Below, piece by piece: positions 3,001-42,475 of a DNA stretch of 64,000 nt. This stretch comes from Apteryx mantelli (Eukaryota; Chordata; Aves; Apterygiformes; Apterygidae): contig NC_090020.1 of assembly GCF_036417845.1 (NCBI RefSeq), positions 36,998,425 to 37,062,424 on the forward strand. Reading direction: 5' to 3'. The position numbers and the translations under genes are program-made. Numbering within the stretch: the first letter of the stretch is position 1; each line of letters begins with the position of its first letter. The notes beneath the pieces are model-generated. The model was given only the letters and a program-made list of their open reading frames with translations. It made no database searches and was not told where the DNA came from.

Positions 3001-5074
3001 GGGCAAATCGTGAGGCCCTGAGTTGTGGTCAGTACATGAAAACTGTAGAGTCCTCTGCAAACCCAGATTTCTACAACCTGTATATCTGGAAAGTTGGGGT
3101 GTCTTATAAATGCTTAGGAGCTCTTACTTCAAGATGTGCTTTTCTTGGAGCTTCTTTAGCAGGGCACACTACATCATGTGAACCCAGTGCTGCTGAGGAT
3201 AAACACAAACTTTACATATTAGTCCAATTCCTTTAATTGCTACTTCACTCTGTAAATATGATGAAGGTGCCAAGCCCTGTGCAGTTACTGAGGAAAAAAG
3301 TAGTACAGTTTCAGCATCATCTGCAAAGCTCTAACTATTAAATTATTTGAAGTATGGGCTGCAGATAGGTCAGGTGATTAGGAGGATTTTACACCTACTG
3401 AGAAAACCACCTCCAGGCTAAGTCAGTATAGCATCAATTCATTTTGGTGGCTGAATCTTTTTAGCAGGTTAGCGCTTCCTTCACATTTGTTGCAAGAAAA
3501 CAAGCTCTCCTTGCTTTAGTAGTACCACAAAGATTATTCAGAACATGCACTTTAAGATGTAAAAGCTAGGTAACAAGCCTTCCACACTGTCAGTGCTGCC
3601 CAGAGCTTTGATTTATCTGTACAAGGAACGAGTGCAGTATTAGCACTAGCACTTATATGTGCTTCCACAAGATAACTGTTTGCTGTCCCAGACAAAGCCT
3701 TTATCTGATCAGCAATTCAATCCTATCTGCAAGTGCTGGGTCAACAGGTTAACTGGAAATTTGTGACTGGCTTGATGATCCAGGAAAACTGCAGTGATGC
3801 CTCGCAGGTTTGTATTTGTAAGCCAGAAATATGTCGAGGTCAGTAAGTCAAAGGGCTCAGAGAGGCATCACCAAATTGTTTCAATTCCTGTGTCAGCAGA
3901 GTCCTGTTACTATTTAGTATTTTGAGTTTTACTGCCAACAGGGAACTTCTAAAGCAAAGACCCCTGAGGCTAGTGATTATATAATTCCCAACAGCATAAC
4001 AATACTTTTTGCATCTTTGTAGCTCTTTTGCCTGAAGTCAGCAAACTGCAGGTTTGGGAGGTCTACTTCCTCAGCAATTTAGGACAGGGCATTTGAATTA
4101 GAGATGCTCAGATGCCATGGAAAGAAAACACTGAAAGGAAAGGATTTTGCTTGGACAGACGCATGCTATTTTGGGTAGACACCTCACTCGATTGCTTTCC
4201 TCCTGTTAAGATGCTGCTATTATCCCATGCAAACCAACAGGTTCCTCCTGCGCAGTGTGGTGCTGCTCTCATAGCTGTAGCAGCACATAATTCCGTCTCG
4301 CTCCCAGCTGTGCCTTGGCAAGAGCCAACCCCTGGTGCTACTGCTGGTTTAGTCTTTAGTGGAATGATTGAAACGTGTATGTTCTTGGAAAGGCTTATGC
4401 AGTGATGGTCCAGGGAGTCCCTTGGCAGTAGCTTTAGCCAGAAAAGGACAATATACATGACTAATACCCACGCCACATTCTACAATCTTGCTAAGCAGAT
4501 TACAGTAATGGTTCTAAATTTTAGTCTGCCTTTCATTAAAGAATAGATTTTTTTTATTGCTTTTGCAAGCTTCCAGCGTGTTGTCAAAACTTTAAAATAC
4601 AAATTAAGCCTTTCTAGAAGTTTATCCTCACCATACTGTATGCATTATTGTCTCTGGTTGTCTGTAGCACCATGAAACATATACCATAAATGGTCTGGTG
4701 ACTAAACACATTCATGTGGTGATGCAGAGTTTTGCCTCCTGCTTCACATCAAGCCAGATTTAATCAAAACATGCAGAGGAGGAAAAACTTCTTATGGTAC
4801 ATGCAAAGATAGACAGATGTTTTTAGATCAGTTTTTTTTTTTAAATCCTATATTTACACTTGCTTTAAGACCTTGCTAGATTTTCTGTCTGTAACACTGC
4901 TATGTTCAAATGCAGTAGCCATATGGGAAAATGTTTGCAGTGCATGTTCACACACTGCAACACACCTTATTTTTCCAATAACTGAACATGGAAGAAGATG
5001 TAATTCCTGCTACCTGCTGAGCTTGCTCTGTAGCTTTTTGGCTGTTTTGGAGTAAACCCGTTTCCCCTCCCTCT

Positions 5075-11175: not shown

Positions 11176-11243
11176 GATTAACTTAAGGCAGTTAAAATAC
11201 CCAGTGTATCTTGCAGGAAATGGATAGGTCACAGACTCTGGCT
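11176..11243 (+). repeat. Diverged local duplication, copy 1
   Basis: This segment aligns with 12351-12425. They share a 24-base identical block (11177-11200 against 12352-12375), then the shared words CAGTGTATCTTG and TCACAGACTCTGG with scattered substitutions and a short length difference. Copies lie in direct orientation about 1.2 kb apart. Similarity fades quickly on both sides. It may be a fragment of an unclassified dispersed repeat. Confidence 0.8.
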
Positions 11244-12350
11244 GGAAGACCATGCTAGAAACACTTAAGGAGCAAGGCACATAGCTAGAAGTGAGGACGC
11301 ACAGAGCAGCTGTAGATGGTGTTGCCAGCAGAAAAGCTTGGTAACTGCCAGTTGGGATTTTCTATTTAAGCTCTAGCAAATGAATGTAGCAGACAATACT
11401 ACAGCATATACATCACTAAATCGAACAGCAACTTCATTTTAACTTTGAGTGTACATTGTTTTCTGCTACCTTTTTTACCACCCCTAGGAGCTGGAGGCTC
11501 CAAGAACATCATCACAGAGCTAGAAATAGCAGGCTGTTAAAATCCAACTACTCTGAAAGAGGCAACCAAGAGAAAGAGAGGCTTGTTGTGTGGATGGGGG
11601 CATGGTAGGCACCTCAACTTTGCTCAGCTCAGAGCCAGCCATTTTAAATTGGTTTGTAGCAGAGAAGGAAAGTGCTCAGGATCAACAGGATAAGCAATGT
11701 TACACTGGGTTTTTCTTCATCTACTTGCTTTTTCAGGACTTTAGGCCTTTTAAAGACTGACAGCCAAGTGCTCAGTGAGGAGTGATGTTGCCCTAGGTTT
11801 GACACCTAAGGTTACCCAACAGAAGCTGCAGGGTGGTCTGCAATGACAAGGAAGCAAAGTCATACCCCAGCAAAAAAACAACAACAAACTAAAAAACCTC
11901 AAACACCATGCAAAGTTTCATTATTTTTGTTTAGATTAGTGAGTTTCATTTTTCCTCTCATGTAGCCCAGGAAACCTGTACCCTGTGTGTCAGTATGCTC
12001 CTTGCTAATTGGTGTCGCCTACACCCAAGAGACACATGAAAAGGAACAAGGGCAGCAGATCACAGCGGGGTGCAACACACTTACAGTACCCCAATAGACC
12101 TCAAAACCTTTATACACTACTTTGGTAGGCAAAACCCTCAGTATAGCCTCAGAGGAAAGTCAGAGGTTTTAGCAGGAATAGGGGCAGCAGATTTCTTAGT
12201 GCAGTGTTTTGAAGAAGACAGAGCTTAGTGCTCACCTGGCTGCTTTGTGTGCAAGAACACCACCGGCAAACTAACAGGGGCCTAATGCAGTGGGAAAGGG
12301 GCAGGATAAGAAAGCAAGTTCAAGGTAGCATTAACTCTCAGGCATATGAT

Positions 12351-12425
12351 AATTAACTTAAGGCAGTTAAAATACTTCTGCTCAGTGTATCTTGTAGAAA
12401 ATGGGTAGATCACAGACTCTGGTTG
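12351..12425 (+). repeat. Diverged local duplication, copy 2
   Basis: Partner of 11176-11243. This copy is slightly longer because of a few extra bases after the shared 24-base block. Otherwise most positions match. Confidence 0.8.
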
Positions 12426-30700: not shown

Positions 30701-31142
30701 GATGACACCACAAACATTATCTTTGCTAGGATTTAATTCTGAAGTTTTCTTATTATTTTCTGAGGTCCTGCACCTGTAAGAATACATGCACTATCATTAT
30801 TCTGTAAACAATAAGGACTGACACATGGATTGATTCTTCAATAAATTTAGTATATGTAATCTGGAAGGAGCACAGAAGCAGCATATTCATCTTTCACTTT
30901 AGAAGAAATAGCCCAGTTATGCTCTTTTCCCCTCAATATGTCATTTGTGCCTATTCTGTGCTTGTTCCTAATGCAAGCCATGTGCCCAAGCTGATAAAGT
31001 CTTTAAGCTTCCAGAAGCACCCAAACTCTTGTAGCAACCAAAATCAATTCCAGTTAGCCTTCATCTGTACCCCAGCCTCCATCTGGAAACATACCATAAA
31101 TAATTAACCTTAGAATATAAATATCACTAATCAGTCCAATAA

Positions 31143-32123
31143 TTGACAGTAGATGCAGCTCTACAGGTCTCAGGCTGCAGGGAGTGCTTGGGGCCTCTCC
31201 GGGAGGCCTGGGCTGGCAGTCAGCTCTCCTGCAGGAGGTGTGCTGCTGTTGACGAGTTGTGTCGTCAGGTAAGGGAGTTACGGGAGGAGGTCAGTAGGCT
31301 GCGCAGCATCCGAGAAGCAGAGCAAGAGATAGACAGGGTATTCTCGGAGACTGTACAGCTCCAGGAGTCCCAACCCCCTGCAGCAGTGGAGTTGCCAGAG
31401 GGCTCTGTGCCGTGTGAAACGGTACATCATAACATCACAGAAGAAGACTGGAAACTGGTCACTGCTCGTGGGAGGAGAAAGGCTCCTACTCCTCCTGAAG
31501 ACCTGAAGCTGAAGAACAGGTTTAGTGCCCTCCAGGCTGAGGAGGAGATGGGCATGGCTGCCAGGGAAGTAACCGGGACAACAGACCCTGTGCCCTGCCG
31601 GAACACCCGGAAAAAGCGGCGGGTGATTGTTGTGGGGGACTCCCTGCTACAGGGGACGGAGGCATCTATCTGCCGACCTGACCTCTTGTCTAGAGAGGTT
31701 TGTGGCCTGCCGGGGGCTCGTGTGAGAGATGTCATGCAAAGACTGCCAAGGCTTGTCCACGCTTCGGACTATTACCCACTGCTGCTCTTCCATGTGGGCG
31801 CCAATGACACCAAGGGCAAACTGGAGACCATCAAGCAGGATTTCAGAGCTCTGGGGATGGTGGTCAAGGGTCTGGGAGCCCAGGTCATCTTCTCCTCAAT
31901 CCTGCCAGTGAGGGGGATGGATGAGAGGAGGAGGAGACGGACTTTCCAGGTTAACGACTGGCTGCGCCGCTGGTGTTGGCAACAGGGTTTTGGTTTCTAC
32001 GACCATGGGACCCTGTTTGAAGATCAACAACTGATGGCGAGAGATGGGATCCACCTCACGAGGCGGGGCACACAGGTCTTTGCCAACAGGTTGGCCAACC
32101 TGGTAAGGAGGGCTTTAAACTAG
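31143..32123 (+). CDS. CR1 ORF1 protein (esterase type), start codon missing
   Basis: Open frame of 326 codons. The frame opens directly after a TAA and its first codon is TTG. No ATG occurs in the N-terminal part, so the native start was lost by 5' truncation. In order it shows a CX2C-X14-CX2C zinc-binding pattern (Cys12, Cys15, Cys30, Cys33), a charged coiled-coil-like stretch (about 36-70) and a basic linker with RKKRR near 155-160. An SGNH-hydrolase/esterase domain then spans about 160-326. The esterase blocks are visible: GDS with Ser167, GAND with Asn221, and the DGIH block with Asp301 and His304. CR1 ORF1 proteins bind nucleic acid and assemble the RNP, and the esterase's role in transposition is unclear. 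It ends TAG five bases before the ORF2 ATG, in a different frame. Confidence 0.93.
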
Positions 32124-32128
32124 GAAAG

Positions 32129-35062
32129 ATGGGGGAAGGGGAGAGTTATAGTGACAGGGTAGTTGGCAAAAGACTGCTCAAGTCAGGATGCCTCCAACAG
32201 GTGAATGCAGCCAGGGAAGTGCGCATGGGATGTGGCTATGGAGGACCCTCTTTTATCCCTCCTGGGAAACCTGCATGCTCGATCACCTCCCTGAAATGCC
32301 TGTACACCAATGCACGCAGCTTGGGGAACAAACAGGAAGAACTAGAGATATGTGTGCGGTCGCAGGGCCATGATCTCATTGCCATTACAGAGACATGGTG
32401 GGATAGCTCGCATGACTGGAGTGCTGTCATGGATGGCTACGTGCTTTTTAGGAAAGACAGACCAGGTAAGCGAGGTGGTGGAATTGCTCTTCATGTGAGA
32501 GAGCAACTGGAATGTATTGAGCTGTGCCTAGGGGTGGATGAAGAGCGAGTCGAGAGCTTCTGGGTAAGGATTAAAGGGCAGGCTAGCATGGGTGACACTG
32601 TTGTGGGTGTTTACTACAGGCCACCTGATGAGGAAGAGGAAGTCGATGAGGCCTTCTACAGACAGCTGGAAGTAGCCTCACGATCCCAGGCCCTGGTTCT
32701 CATGGGGGACTTCAACCACCCCGATATCTGCTGGAAAGACAACACAGCTAGGCACAAACAGTCCTGGAGATTCCTGCAGAGCATTGGTGACAACTTCTTG
32801 ACCCAGGTGGTGGAGGAGCCAACAAGGAGAGGTGTGCTGCTGGACCTCGTACTAACAAACAAAGAAGGACTGGTGGAAGATGTGAAGGTTGGGGGCTGCC
32901 TTGGCTGCAGTGACCATGAGATGGTGGAGTTCAGGATCCTGCGAGGAGGCAGCAGGGCACCAAGTAGGATCGCAACCCTGGACTTCAGGAGAGCAAACTT
33001 TGGCCTCTTCAGGGACCTACTTGGAGGAATCCCATGGGTGAGGGCCCTGGAAGGAAGGGGTGTTCAAGAGAGTTGGTTAATATTCAAACATCACTTCCTC
33101 CAGGCTCAAGAGCGGTGCATCCCTATGAGTAGGAAGTCAAGCAAAGGAGGTAGGAGACCTGCATGGATGAGCAAGGAGCTCCTGGCAAAACTCAACCAGA
33201 AGAAGGAAGTATACAGAAAGTGGAAAGGGGGACAGGCCACTTGGGAGGAATATAGGAATGTTGTCAGAGTATGCAGGGATGCGACGAGGAAGGCTAAGGC
33301 CCGTTTGGAATTAAATCTGGCTAGAGATGTCAAGGACAACAAGAAGGGCTTCTTCAAATACATCAGTAGCAAGAGGAAGACTAGGGAAAATGTGGGCCCT
33401 TTGCTGAATGGGGTGGGTGCCCTGGTGACGAAGGATGCAGAGAAGGCAGAGTTACTGAATGCCTTCTTTGCTTCAGTCTTTACTGGTCAGGCCAGCCCTC
33501 AGGAACCCCAGACCCTGGAGGCAAGAGAGAAAGTCTGGAAAAAGGAAGACTTTCCCTTGGTCGAGGAGGATCGGGTTAGAGATCATTTAAGCAAACTTGA
33601 CACCCACAAATCCATGGGCCCTGATGGGATGCACCCACGAGTGCTGAGGGAGCTGGCGGACATTATTGCTAAGCCACTCTCCATCATCTTTGAAAGGTCA
33701 TGGAGAACAGGAGAGGTGCCCGAGGACTGGAAGAAAGCCAATGTCACCCCAGTCTTTAAAAAGGGCAAGAAGGAGGACCCAGGGAACTACAAGCCAGTCA
33801 GCCTCACCTCCATCCCTGGAAAGGTGATGGAGCAGCTCATCCTGGAAGCCATCTCCACGCATGTGGAGGAAAAGAAGGGGATCAGGAGTAGTCAGCATGG
33901 CTTCACCAAGGGGAAATCATGCCTAACCAATCTGATAGCCTTCTATGATGGAATGACTGGCTGGGTAGATGAGGGGAGAGCAGTGGATGTTGTCTACCTT
34001 GACTTCAGCAAGGCTTTTGACACTGTCTCCCATAGCATCCTCATAGGGAAGCTCAGGAAGTGTGGGTTAGATGAGTGGACAGTGAGGTGGATTGAGAACT
34101 GGCTGAATGGCAGAGCTCAGAGAGTTGTGATCAGCGGCACAGAGTCTAGTTGGAGGCCTGTAGCTAGCGGTGTCCCCCAGGGGTCCGTACTGGGTCCAGT
34201 CTTGTTCAACTTCTTCATCAATGACCTGGATGAAGGCACAGAGTGCACCCTCAGCAAGTTTGCTGACGATACAAAACTGGGAGGAGTGGCCGATACGCCA
34301 GAGGGCTGTGCTGCCATTCAGAGAGACCTGGACAGGCTGGAGAGGTGGGCAGAGAGGAACCTCATGAAGTTCAACAAAGGCAAGTGCAGGGTCCTGCACC
34401 TGGGGAGGAATAACCCCATGCAGCAGTACAGGTTGGGGGCTGACCTGCTGGAAAGCAGCTCTGCTGAGAAGGACCTGGGAGTGCTGGTGGACACCAAGTT
34501 AAGTATGAGGCAGCAATGTGCCCTTGTGGCCAAGAAGGCCAATGGTATCCTGGGCTGCATCAGGAACAGTGTTGCCAGCAGGTCGAGGGAGGTGATTCTC
34601 CCCCTCTACTCAGCCCTGGTGAGGCCCCATCTGGAGTACTGCGTCCAGTTCTGGGCTCCCCAGTACAAGAGGGATGTGGCACTACTGGAGCAAGTCCAGC
34701 GAAGGGCCACAAAGATGATTAGGGGACTGGAGCATCTCTCTTATGAGGAAAGGCTGAGAGAGCTTGGCCTGTTTAGCTTGGAGAAAAGAAGGCTGAGAGG
34801 AGATCTTATCAATGTGTACAAGTATCTGAAGGGAGGGTGTCGAGAGGATGGGGCCAGACTCTTTTCAGTGGTGCCGAGCGACAGGACGCGAGGCAATGGG
34901 CACAAACTGAAACACAGACACTTCCATCTGAACATGAGGAAAAACTTCTTCACTGTGAGGGTGACAGAGCACTGGAACAGGTTGCCCCGAGAGGTGGTGG
35001 AGTCTCCTTCTCTGGAGATATTCAAAATGCGCCTGGATGCAATCCTGTGCAATATGCTCTAG
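32129..35062 (+). CDS. CR1 ORF2: APE endonuclease and reverse transcriptase
   Basis: An uninterrupted 977-codon frame starting ATGGGG and ending TAG. The N-terminal exonuclease/endonuclease/phosphatase domain (about 52-275) nicks target DNA. Its expected residues are visible: Asn61 in YTNARS, Glu88 in ITETWW, Asp194 and Asn196 in GDFNHPD, Asp239 in DLVLTN, and Asp262-His263 in SDH. The reverse transcriptase domain (about 490-760) contains GPDGMHP (497 on), motif A LDFSKAFD (Asp625), motif [11 protein letters not shown] (681-690) and motif C FADD (711-714, catalytic Asp713-Asp714). The C-terminal part, about 760-977, has the basic region usual for CR1. No catalytic residue is missing and length is typical, so the protein could be functional if expressed. 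Expression cannot be judged because the promoter-bearing 5' UTR is absent. Confidence 0.96.
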
Positions 35063-35142
35063 GTGACCCTGCTTGAGCAGAGGGGTTGGACTAGATGATC
35101 TCCAGAGGTCCCTTCCAACCTCAGTGATTCTGTGATTCTGTA
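35063..35142 (+). repeat. CR1 3' UTR with hairpin and octamer tail
   Basis: The 80 bases after the ORF2 stop contain the conserved bird CR1 stem GGTTGGA (35084-35090) pairing with TCCAACC (35114-35120). Two tail octamers follow, ATTCTGTG (35127-35134) and ATTCTGTA (35135-35142). In CR1 elements this structure and tail are recognised by the element's own reverse transcriptase to prime copying. The tail has only two units and no poly(A), as expected for the family. Confidence 0.93.
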
Positions 35143-37386
35143 ATGAGATCCAACTACAAAGGTGATCCGCACAACTCTTCATGTATACGATGCTAGCACA
35201 AAGGACTTAACATACATACAACTGAGTATTAATACTATCTGTTTTAAAGTAAGGGAGACATTTCTGGCAGAACCCCGTTAAGTCCTAACTCAGATAACCT
35301 AACCACAACGAGATCCTGATTCCCTGTATCTGTTTCTCTTGTGGATGTTTTCTTGGGGTGGGGGAGAAAATAATAAAAATCACCTTATGATTAACTAACT
35401 TGTTTGTTATCTTTCTTGTTATGGGATCCTGGAAGTGGAATATAAAAATATCATTTAATGGCTTTCCTCAGTTTGTTCTCTTCACAAATTCTAATGAATT
35501 TGGATTCCAAATGACACCCCAGGTCATCTTTACCCCATAAAACGAATAAGCCATCTGTAATCACTAGTACAGGGGACGCAAGTTTGTGCGATAAAGGTTG
35601 GAGGGGAGTGGAAGCATTCTGAGGACCCAGCTCAGAAGCTGTGCTTTGCACACATATGGCAGCTACCCTGAAACCATATCACATTCCAGTTACCATAGTA
35701 ATGCAGGGAAGAACTGATGTCTCTTCTGTTCTTAAGCTGTGAATGATCTTTTGCACCCACACAGGCTAGTGTCTTTTTTGAAGTTTAAGATCAGGATTCA
35801 GAAAGCCACCAATGATTTGCATTGCCTGGAAATGATTTTAACCCTATAAGGTTTTGAAACTTTTGATAAGGTTTAAAAAAATTCATCTCATTATACCATG
35901 TACTCAACCTACCAGTTAGCAAAATTACAAGTATTTTATTGAAAAACATCTTTCATAGTTTAAAAAGCTACTTACTGTTAGAAACTCAAAACTGAAATCT
36001 GTTTCTTTAAACAAATAATTGCCACTGATAGTTCCAGACCAAAGCTTTTCTTTTAATTCCTTTTTTATTTTTCAGAGAAATTATCTTTTCTGACCATCTC
36101 AAGGTTTTGTACAGAGGTTGGGCTGCACTTCTTTAGCTCAAGCCTTTGCATAGCAGTGGCAACAGTGCTCAGTCACATTCATCTATCTGCCTGCATGCAT
36201 ATGGAAAAAAAGTAAAGTTTTTGAAATTTCTCCTATGAAATTTCTCCAAGTCTCACATATATCACAGAAGATTTGAGTGATGTCACTTAGATTCTAGCAG
36301 GCAACAAGTTATTCTTCTGGAAGTTGTTAAAAAGAGAAATCAAAAGTGAAGTCAAATGCAGAATAAAGCATACAAAGATACCATCGAAAGTCACTGCAAG
36401 TAGTAACTTATATACTCAGGGAATCAAAAGCCAAGAAATCTCCAAGTCAAAACCTCTGACATGATATATGTAACCTGTTCCTCCAGCTTTAACTCCACCA
36501 GTTTAGCTGGCAGAAAAGCATGCTCTGCTTAATCTACACCAGATTTTTGGGAGATAGCAGCTAGGTACACATCCTAAATCCCAGTCTGGCTGAAATCTAA
36601 CTGAGGCACACCACTTCAAAGGATCTGCTCCCTCGTGCCACAAGCCTATGGTGATTTTAATTGCAGAAGCCCCTATTTCAGCTCGACAAAGGCCCTTGTC
36701 AGCTCTCAAAAGAAAGTGGTATTGTGGATGCAGATCAGGAACGCGATTTCTAAGCATAAAGTGATACATAGTAGAAACAGAAGAAATTCAAAGAGCATAA
36801 GCTATTCCCATACTGCAAACATGTATGGTTTCTGAAAACAATGCTTCTTTATTAAAATTCCTCCATATGTCACTTTTTCCCTGTCACCTACCACTTCATT
36901 GGATCTCCACTTTATACACAAGAAAAACTGTCAACTTTTTTCCTCTCACAGCAATGCTCTATAGGTTGTCCTGGCTTTTTATATCTTAAGACTGCAGTAA
37001 TTTCAAGTAAACTATAAGAAACTAAGCAGCAGAACACCCACTGACGTGAGTCTACCAAAGGGAAAGAGCGGACCATATCTATGCTAGCGACAAATTAGTG
37101 TCAGGGACAGACTGGAGCTGCACCTTGCATTAAAAATAACAAGCTTTGGTATTTAAGTCACAAATACTGAAAGTTAATTTTAAAGAATAATGGTCAAAAC
37201 TAATGCAGATATAGTGGTTTTGCTGCTTTTTTATTTAGGAGAATATTTTTGATTCACATAATCAAACAAAAACAAGACAAGGATAAAACTTAACTTGCCA
37301 ACTGCTACCTTTGTAATGTTTACCAAAACCTTACAGCTGTGAGATTTTTCATTGAGTGTGCTTCCATATATATTTATATGGGTTTG

Positions 37387-42059: not shown

Positions 42060-42475
42060 AGGGACAACAGCCCTGCAGCACCTGACACACAGGGGGAGGC
42101 TGAAAGAAGTGGGTTTGTGTAGCCTTAAGAAAGAGGAGAAATCTGCTTGTGGTCTTATTGTGGTGTTCAACAACCTGCCAGGAGGGCACAGAACAAGACT
42201 CTTCTCGGAGATGTACAGTGATAGGATCAGAAGCAACAGCCTCATGTTGCAACATGGAAAATTCTGATTAACCTAAAAAAATTTTCATTATGAAGGAGGT
42301 CAAACACTGGAACAGCAACCCGAAAAAACTGTTGAGCCTGGGAGATAACCAATTGGATGGAGATAACCATCTACTGGATGTGGTCTTGAGCAACCAGCTA
42401 TAGAAGGCCCTGCTTTGGGTGGGGGCGTTGCACTACACGGCATCCAGGTCTCTTTGGCCCTCCAAGTCTCTGACT
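42060..42475 (+). mobile_element. Old degraded CR1 3' fragment
   Basis: Diverged copy of the CR1 ORF2 C-terminal end and 3' region, in the same orientation as the young element. Landmarks parallel the intact copy. GAGGCTGAAAGAAG near 42095 matches its GAAAGGCTGAGAGAGC. CAGAACAAGACTCTTCTC corresponds to its GGGGCCAGACTCTTTTC. GAGGTCAAACACTGGAACAGC corresponds to GGTGACAGAGCACTGGAACAG. GGTCTCTTTGGCCCTCC corresponds to GAGGTCCCTTCCAACC. Many substitutions, indels and stops mark it as ancient. The left boundary is uncertain (42040-42095) and no octamer tail survives. Confidence 0.8.

Follow-up and report, generated by a model that had tools for sequence, protein, structure and literature searches.

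Does a CR1 retrotransposon with open reading frames in the genome of Apteryx mantelli represent an active element, and if so, is it the copy or its family that is active? The copy in question lies in a stretch of 64,000 nucleotides from contig NC_090020.1, referred to in its full length as the window. Positions 31144-35141 of the forward strand form a copy of a CR1 long interspersed nuclear element (LINE), whose match to 29 relatives from the same genome starts at 31144 and reaches the octamers at the 3′ end. An earlier note on this DNA had described both open reading frames (ORFs) as intact and had proposed a recent insertion from an active lineage. Our analysis indicates that the window very probably holds a 5′-truncated, evolutionarily recent insertion of a CR1 family with putative tandem promoters, which has been retrotransposing up to the very recent past. 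The copy itself is a truncated young CR1 copy of the ordinary kind.

The window copy carries the characteristic domains of CR1. Its ORF2 combines an AP-type endonuclease with a reverse transcriptase in one frame, and its ORF1 encodes an SGNH esterase, which is a CR1 feature; the PDB entry matched by this domain, 4c1b, is listed as an ORF1-encoded protein. Comparison of the element with the 1.504-Gb genome produced 8350 first-look candidates, of which 37 were scored, one of them being the element itself. At least 36 further copies span the element at 98-99% identity, all of them beginning at base 2 of the query and ending at 3997-4000. Of these 36, 29 (L003-L031) were read together with 1.5-kb flanks. 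The flanks are unlike between the copies, which therefore are independent insertions.

Alignment with these relatives revealed where the window copy departs from them. The homology of every relative to the window ends at 31144, and upstream of the equivalent position each relative continues to match at least five other copies over 196-1340 nt. ORF1 comprises 353 codons in 27 of the 29 relatives compared with 326 in the window copy, and starts 27 codons above the codon at 31143; the window copy thus lacks the 5′ untranslated region (5′UTR), the ATG and the following 26 codons. The description of both frames as intact consequently holds for the 977 codons of ORF2, whereas ORF1, said to be open from close to its start, is open over its 326 codons but has lost its start codon. 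Neither of the two features that we expect of a copy capable of acting as a source, a 5′UTR with promoter and an ORF1 start codon, is present at this locus.

The coding state was examined with 17 selected motif strings. Sixteen of them were present in 27-29 of the 29 aligned sequences, the window copy included. The remaining string, in the endonuclease domain (ORF2 residues 116-124), has a form found only in the window copy, with the unique changes V119I and Y122H. Neither change affects a residue taken to be catalytic; these residues, which lie in the TET, GDFN, SDH, FSKAFD and FADD strings, are unchanged, as the earlier note had stated. In a simulation that ignored insertions and deletions (indels), the frames stayed open with probabilities of 0.45, 0.18 and 0.03 after 22, 47 and 100 random substitutions, respectively. 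An earlier simulation, which assumed indel and CpG ratios and left both frames open in 1.3% of runs for a divergence of 1%, was not relied on. The open frames fit a recent copy but provide no sharp clock, because they survive 22 random changes with a probability of 0.45.

Stronger statements can be made on the family. ORF1 is complete in 27 of the 29 relatives (not in L013 and L024), ORF2 likewise in 27 (not in L021 and L030), and both are complete in 25. Distances were calculated for 29 sequences of equal length, namely the window copy and 28 relatives; L024 was dropped owing to a length difference of 2 nt. Over 3998 bases the pairwise differences ranged from 2 to 69 with a median of 39, and two pairs, L015-L016 and L018-L029, were only 2 bases apart. 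A genome search with L018 recovered 36 full-length places, L018 among them, plus a partial one at 94%; the closest others differed by 2, 3 and 6 bases, and the lowest full-length place was, judged by score, about 32 mismatches away. Variants common to at least two of the 29 aligned sequences gave an omega of 0.37 (0.24-0.55; 45 nonsynonymous, 47 synonymous), compared with 0.70 (0.52-0.93; 118 nonsynonymous, 70 synonymous and 3 stops) for private variants, 11 sites with more than two states being left out of the counts. These ratios point to constraint during copying followed by relaxation, as is typical of an active LINE. The relatives thus combine near identity at independent sites with intact ORFs and purifying selection. 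The recent insertion and the active lineage proposed in the earlier note are borne out by the copies at 98-99% identity and by sisters 2-3 bases apart at different sites, found through the comparison within the assembly that it had proposed.

The window copy is recent, yet not among the youngest of its family. It carries 21-22 strictly private changes; 21 of these include 12 nonsynonymous and 8 synonymous ones. Nine of 22 are located in two tight clusters (32461-32492 and 33540-33572), while 31 other minor variants are common to varying sister copies. Clustered private and scattered common variants may possibly reflect conversion or template switching between copies. At a substitution rate of about 2e-9 per site per year, the sister pairs 2 bases apart would be about 0.1 million years (Myr) old, and the window copy about 2.6 Myr if private changes are counted or 6 Myr if the whole terminal branch is used.

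What distinguishes this family is the region that the window copy has lost. Upstream of ORF1 the longer copies contain a tether and a start segment of about 40 bp, which in 18 of the 29 is preceded by one to three TATA-bearing units. No internal TATA was present in the other 11, and 16 of the 29 combine two complete ORFs with one or more internal TATA units. The 18 clean units compared, 361-384 bp long, displayed a pairwise identity of at least 97.6% and 99.6% on average; this comparison excluded three pieces outside 340-400 bp, one in L006 that was not split and two of 34 bp in L015. When one unit was used as genome query, 40 places were scored out of 1418 candidates and grouped by hand. They contain 57 complete units in arrays of one to six, and 36 of the matches are identical over all 375 bases. 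In 35 of the 40 arrays no cut unit was detected upstream, and the short start segment terminates 38 of them. The longest array seen (G000:C7:95277-97518) consists of six consecutive complete units and precedes a full-length copy at C7:97677.

Most copies have their 5′ end at the same point of the unit. In 21 of the 29 copies the end is located 1-12 nt upstream of one motif and in one further copy 24 nt upstream; the other seven start elsewhere, two of them (L013 and L026) a few nucleotides inside the end motif. Near the end of the unit, ATTGGGCGG lies 44 nt and TGAGTCA 23 nt upstream of the TATA motif, a spacing that was fixed at all 27 measurable sites. We take these motifs to be CCAAT/GC-, AP-1- and TATA-like. 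The exact string TATATAAG was found at 26 of 28 TATA sites, and the distance from TATA to the end motif was 39 nt at 17 of the 28 and 25 nt at 7, the remaining 4 being unpairable with a following motif. In the commoner unit type, with 39-nt spacing, the distance from the TATA motif down to the 5′ ends is 27-38 nt with a median of 32, which agrees with the textbook distance between a TATA box and its start site. Tandem 5′UTR units with copy 5′ ends at a single unit point correspond to the organization of mouse L1. We interpret the 5′UTR of this CR1 family as a tandem promoter of the mouse L1 kind, its promoter activity being suggested by the motifs and the positions of the 5′ ends.

These data are compatible with the following course of events. 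The longer copies would be transcribed by RNA polymerase II (Pol II) from the tandem 5′UTR units, each unit having its own putative CCAAT/GC box, AP-1 site, TATA box and start site, and the 5′ end of the 5′-most unit would mark the start site used in the parent. As transcription would begin downstream of the TATA box, the number of promoters should drop by at least one from parent to new copy. No promoter should be left in copies that retain nothing but the final start point (11 of the 29 have no internal TATA), since a start needs a TATA above it. For the family to persist, the arrays would have to be re-lengthened, as told for mouse L1. The window copy itself may have arisen by target-primed reverse transcription, in which the ORF2 endonuclease would nick the target and reverse transcription would begin in the 3′ octamer and halt early inside ORF1. 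Without promoter and ORF1 start it should therefore not act as a source on its own. In a wider sense, a bird CR1 lineage may have gained a complete tandem Pol II promoter module (CCAAT/GC box, AP-1 site and TATA box), in which each retrotransposition costs at least one unit and only re-expansion of the array resets the count. Such a module would be convergent with mouse L1 and might underlie the recent burst; we consider the evidence for this larger proposal evenly balanced. If true, the family would have a built-in countdown, and the loss and regain of units would be testable in birds.

A number of observations weigh against these interpretations. The relatives were chosen by score, which favours intact copies, and among 11 other loci inspected around the last 1.5 kb, eight end inside the element, one continues beyond the stretch that was cut out and two were already among the 29. 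The earlier note had counted many differences from the closest relatives against a recent insertion, and this holds in part: the window copy is the most diverged of the aligned sequences, its nearest relative being 51 of 3998 bases away, and it forms the longest terminal branch of the 29 with about 47 changes, in a tree with weak deep nodes. CpG content was rejected as an age clock, with an observed/expected ratio of 0.26 in both element and flanks and hence no sign of youth. The predicted stability of the 3′UTR hairpin equals that of shuffled sequences (z 0.16). As for the promoter, the end motif was picked after viewing these very sequences, so that the chance figure of about 1e-25 is to be taken loosely; with the 25-nt spacing the same 5′ ends would lie only 13-24 nt below the TATA motif; and promoter function is deduced from motifs and from the positions of the 5′ ends.

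Other explanations were weighed against the same evidence. That the window copy is a full, autonomous and possibly active CR1 might be suspected from its intact ORF2 and the 326 open codons of ORF1, but it is highly improbable with a 5′ junction inside ORF1, with ATG, 5′UTR and promoter unit all missing, and with all 29 relatives reaching 196-1340 nt further in the 5′ direction. Alternatively, host selection could keep the frames open, ORF1 or ORF2 having been domesticated at this site, as they are still open despite 21-22 private changes. This is extremely improbable: the excess of nonsynonymous over synonymous private changes (12 versus 8) does not point to strong constraint, the simulated probability of open frames after 22 changes is the 0.45 given above, and 25 of the 29 sister copies are just as open.

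Two further alternatives concern the family. The head-to-tail arrays of near-identical units resemble a satellite that has been joined to CR1 copies by chance and is not a promoter. We regard this as unlikely, because the same tether and ORF1 follow the units in 18 of 29 copies, the array runs into the short start segment leading to the tether in 38 of 40 places, and a satellite leaves the 5′ ends at one unit point unexplained. The near-identity of the copies could also be an artefact, produced by a duplicated assembly or by gene conversion between old copies; scattered variants in common with different copies and two tight private clusters are what conversion or template switching leaves. An artefact is nevertheless very unlikely, given that flanks and unit number differ between copies and that the two junctions of L008 share a 22-nt match, of which up to 4 nt possibly belong to the element. 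Over all copies, at least 8 nt were common to both flanks in 3 of 30, L008 among them, compared with 0.65% of mismatched pairs. Recent retrotransposition of a CR1 family with putative tandem promoters, with the window copy as one of its truncated products, thus remains the preferred explanation.

The features of the window copy are compiled in the table. Statements on published work, here and below, refer to the available parts of the papers cited.

Table. Features of the CR1 copy in the window, with positions counted from the first nucleotide of the window.
Feature	Position	Strand	Evidence or remark
5′-truncated CR1 LINE copy	31144..35141	+	homology with the 29 relatives read
ORF1 fragment	31143..32123	+	326 codons open; base 31143 is flank; first 27 codons including ATG gone
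SGNH/GDSL esterase domain of ORF1	31632..32075	+	Pfam PF13472, E 1.3e-10; PDB 4c1b, E 1.5e-20
ORF2	32129..35062	+	ATG at 32129, stop at 35060-35062, 977 codons, open
AP-type endonuclease domain (Exo_endo_phos) of ORF2	32354..32917	+	Pfam PF03372, E 8.4e-13
Reverse transcriptase domain (RVT_1) of ORF2 with FADD motif	33767..34417	+	Pfam PF00078, E 1.7e-31; LINE-1 and R2 chains in PDB
3′UTR with hairpin candidate	35063..35141	+	predicted -21.8 kcal/mol
3′ octamer ATTCTGTG, one full and one cut copy	35127..35141	+	octamer as in PMC2612034 and PMC8665684
AAT directly left of the 5′ junction	31141..31143	+	AAT also directly right of the 3′ end (35142-35144)

At their 3′ ends the relatives have about 2-5 copies of the octamer. 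With one full and one cut octamer, the 3′ end of the window copy does not belong to the 10-mer CR1-W type of PMC8665684. The AAT on both sides of the copy may be a 3-nt target duplication or may be due to chance; no repeat of at least 6 nt was found near the two junctions. A zinc-finger-like motif has been named for CR1 ORF1 (PMC4316615); no Pfam model for it matched ORF1 of the window copy, and no search aimed at the motif was made.

No further copy of the element at the DNA level was found within the window. An old CR1 ORF2 relic at 42070-42264 (+), with 44% protein identity over 68 aligned positions, contrasts in age with the window copy. Searches for relatives of the element among viral contigs and among plasmids found none. 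Phages gave nine records, all below 60% identity, and three of the five listed are annotated as bacterial-type reverse transcriptases. In the genome contig collection the sole match was one fragment of 39 residues at the end of a Eubacterium contig. This contig, JAGHJI010000019.1 from a metagenome-assembled genome, opens with a CR1-like ORF2 piece (positions 1-110; 57 nt at 82%), which is probably animal DNA joined to a bacterial contig.

The surroundings of the element contain 727 stop-to-stop ORFs of 40 codons or more, and a Pfam scan of 290 of them yielded a single marginal match (NPBW, E 8e-4, one member). Three splice-flanked candidates for host exons, obtained in a scan with assumed site frequencies, did not match Pfam, and no host exon was recognised in the window. 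The location in a host intron given in the earlier note was not confirmed by these scans. Two stretches of about 70 bp (11177-11244 and 12352-12425) form a repeat pair with 84% identity. The contig of the window, C44 (88 Mb), contains three DM-domain exons within about 100 kb (G000:C44:7866739-7967501), and two more are located on C8. Such exons we take, from the chicken map and together with the contig sizes, to be a Z-like mark, and C44 is probably the Z chromosome. A decayed cytochrome-b-like stretch on another nuclear contig (L047 1501-1953; G000:C5:76869236-76869688) is probably a nuclear mitochondrial insertion.

Taken alone, the window copy matters little. The family matters more, as its 29 longer copies define a CR1 5′UTR sharply, and exact CR1 5′UTRs have been described as hard to determine owing to 5′ truncation (PMC4316615). 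The rarity among birds that the earlier note had attributed to intact CR1s echoes an older view, based on very few intact CR1s in five species (PMC5486457). It applies to songbirds and landfowl but not to birds in general: a survey of 117 genomes reported intact CR1s in many orders and few in these two groups, namely in 2 of 22 perching birds and 1 of 7 landfowl (PMC8665684). In the available main text of that survey the words UTR, promoter and monomer do not occur. A literature search aimed at tandem or monomeric LINE 5′UTRs and promoters found, in titles and abstract openings among the matches listed, no CR1 with a 5′UTR of tandem units. The 5′UTR of this family looks new within that literature.

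Compared with avian CR1 as described so far, the family has the same two ORFs, an ORF2 with endonuclease and reverse transcriptase, the ATTCTRTG octamer at the 3′ end and frequent 5′ truncation (PMC4316615, PMC8665684). It differs by its tandem 5′UTR units of about 375 bp with TATA boxes. Chicken CR1-B and CR1-F possess distinct 5′UTRs, of which that of CR1-B is put at about 240 bp and contains two E boxes; tandem units do not feature in the available part of that report (PMC2734521). With 1.504 Gb, the present genome resembles that of the woodpecker Melanerpes aurifrons, likewise a large CR1-rich bird genome (1.309-Gb assembly, 21.9% CR1; PMC7263694). The closest parallel in organization is mouse L1Md with its monomeric 5′UTR, which shows the same variable count of tandem promoter units and a tether before ORF1 (PMC6454616, PMC9022269). 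There, two monomers are far more active than one (PMC6454616, PMC9022269), and start sites were placed from the 5′ ends of copies, a logic also used here, and compared with cap analysis of gene expression (CAGE) data (PMC6454616). In contrast to the present family, L1Md belongs to the L1 clade and not to CR1, and its unit measures 180-220 bp instead of about 375 bp. Mouse monomer types G and T have YY1 sites near their starts, whereas CCAAT-, AP-1- and TATA-like motifs are found here; the word TATA is absent from the main texts of both mouse papers (PMC6454616, PMC9022269). A tandem TATA promoter in CR1 would represent a second case, in another LINE clade, of the way in which mouse L1 keeps its promoter despite truncation-prone copying.

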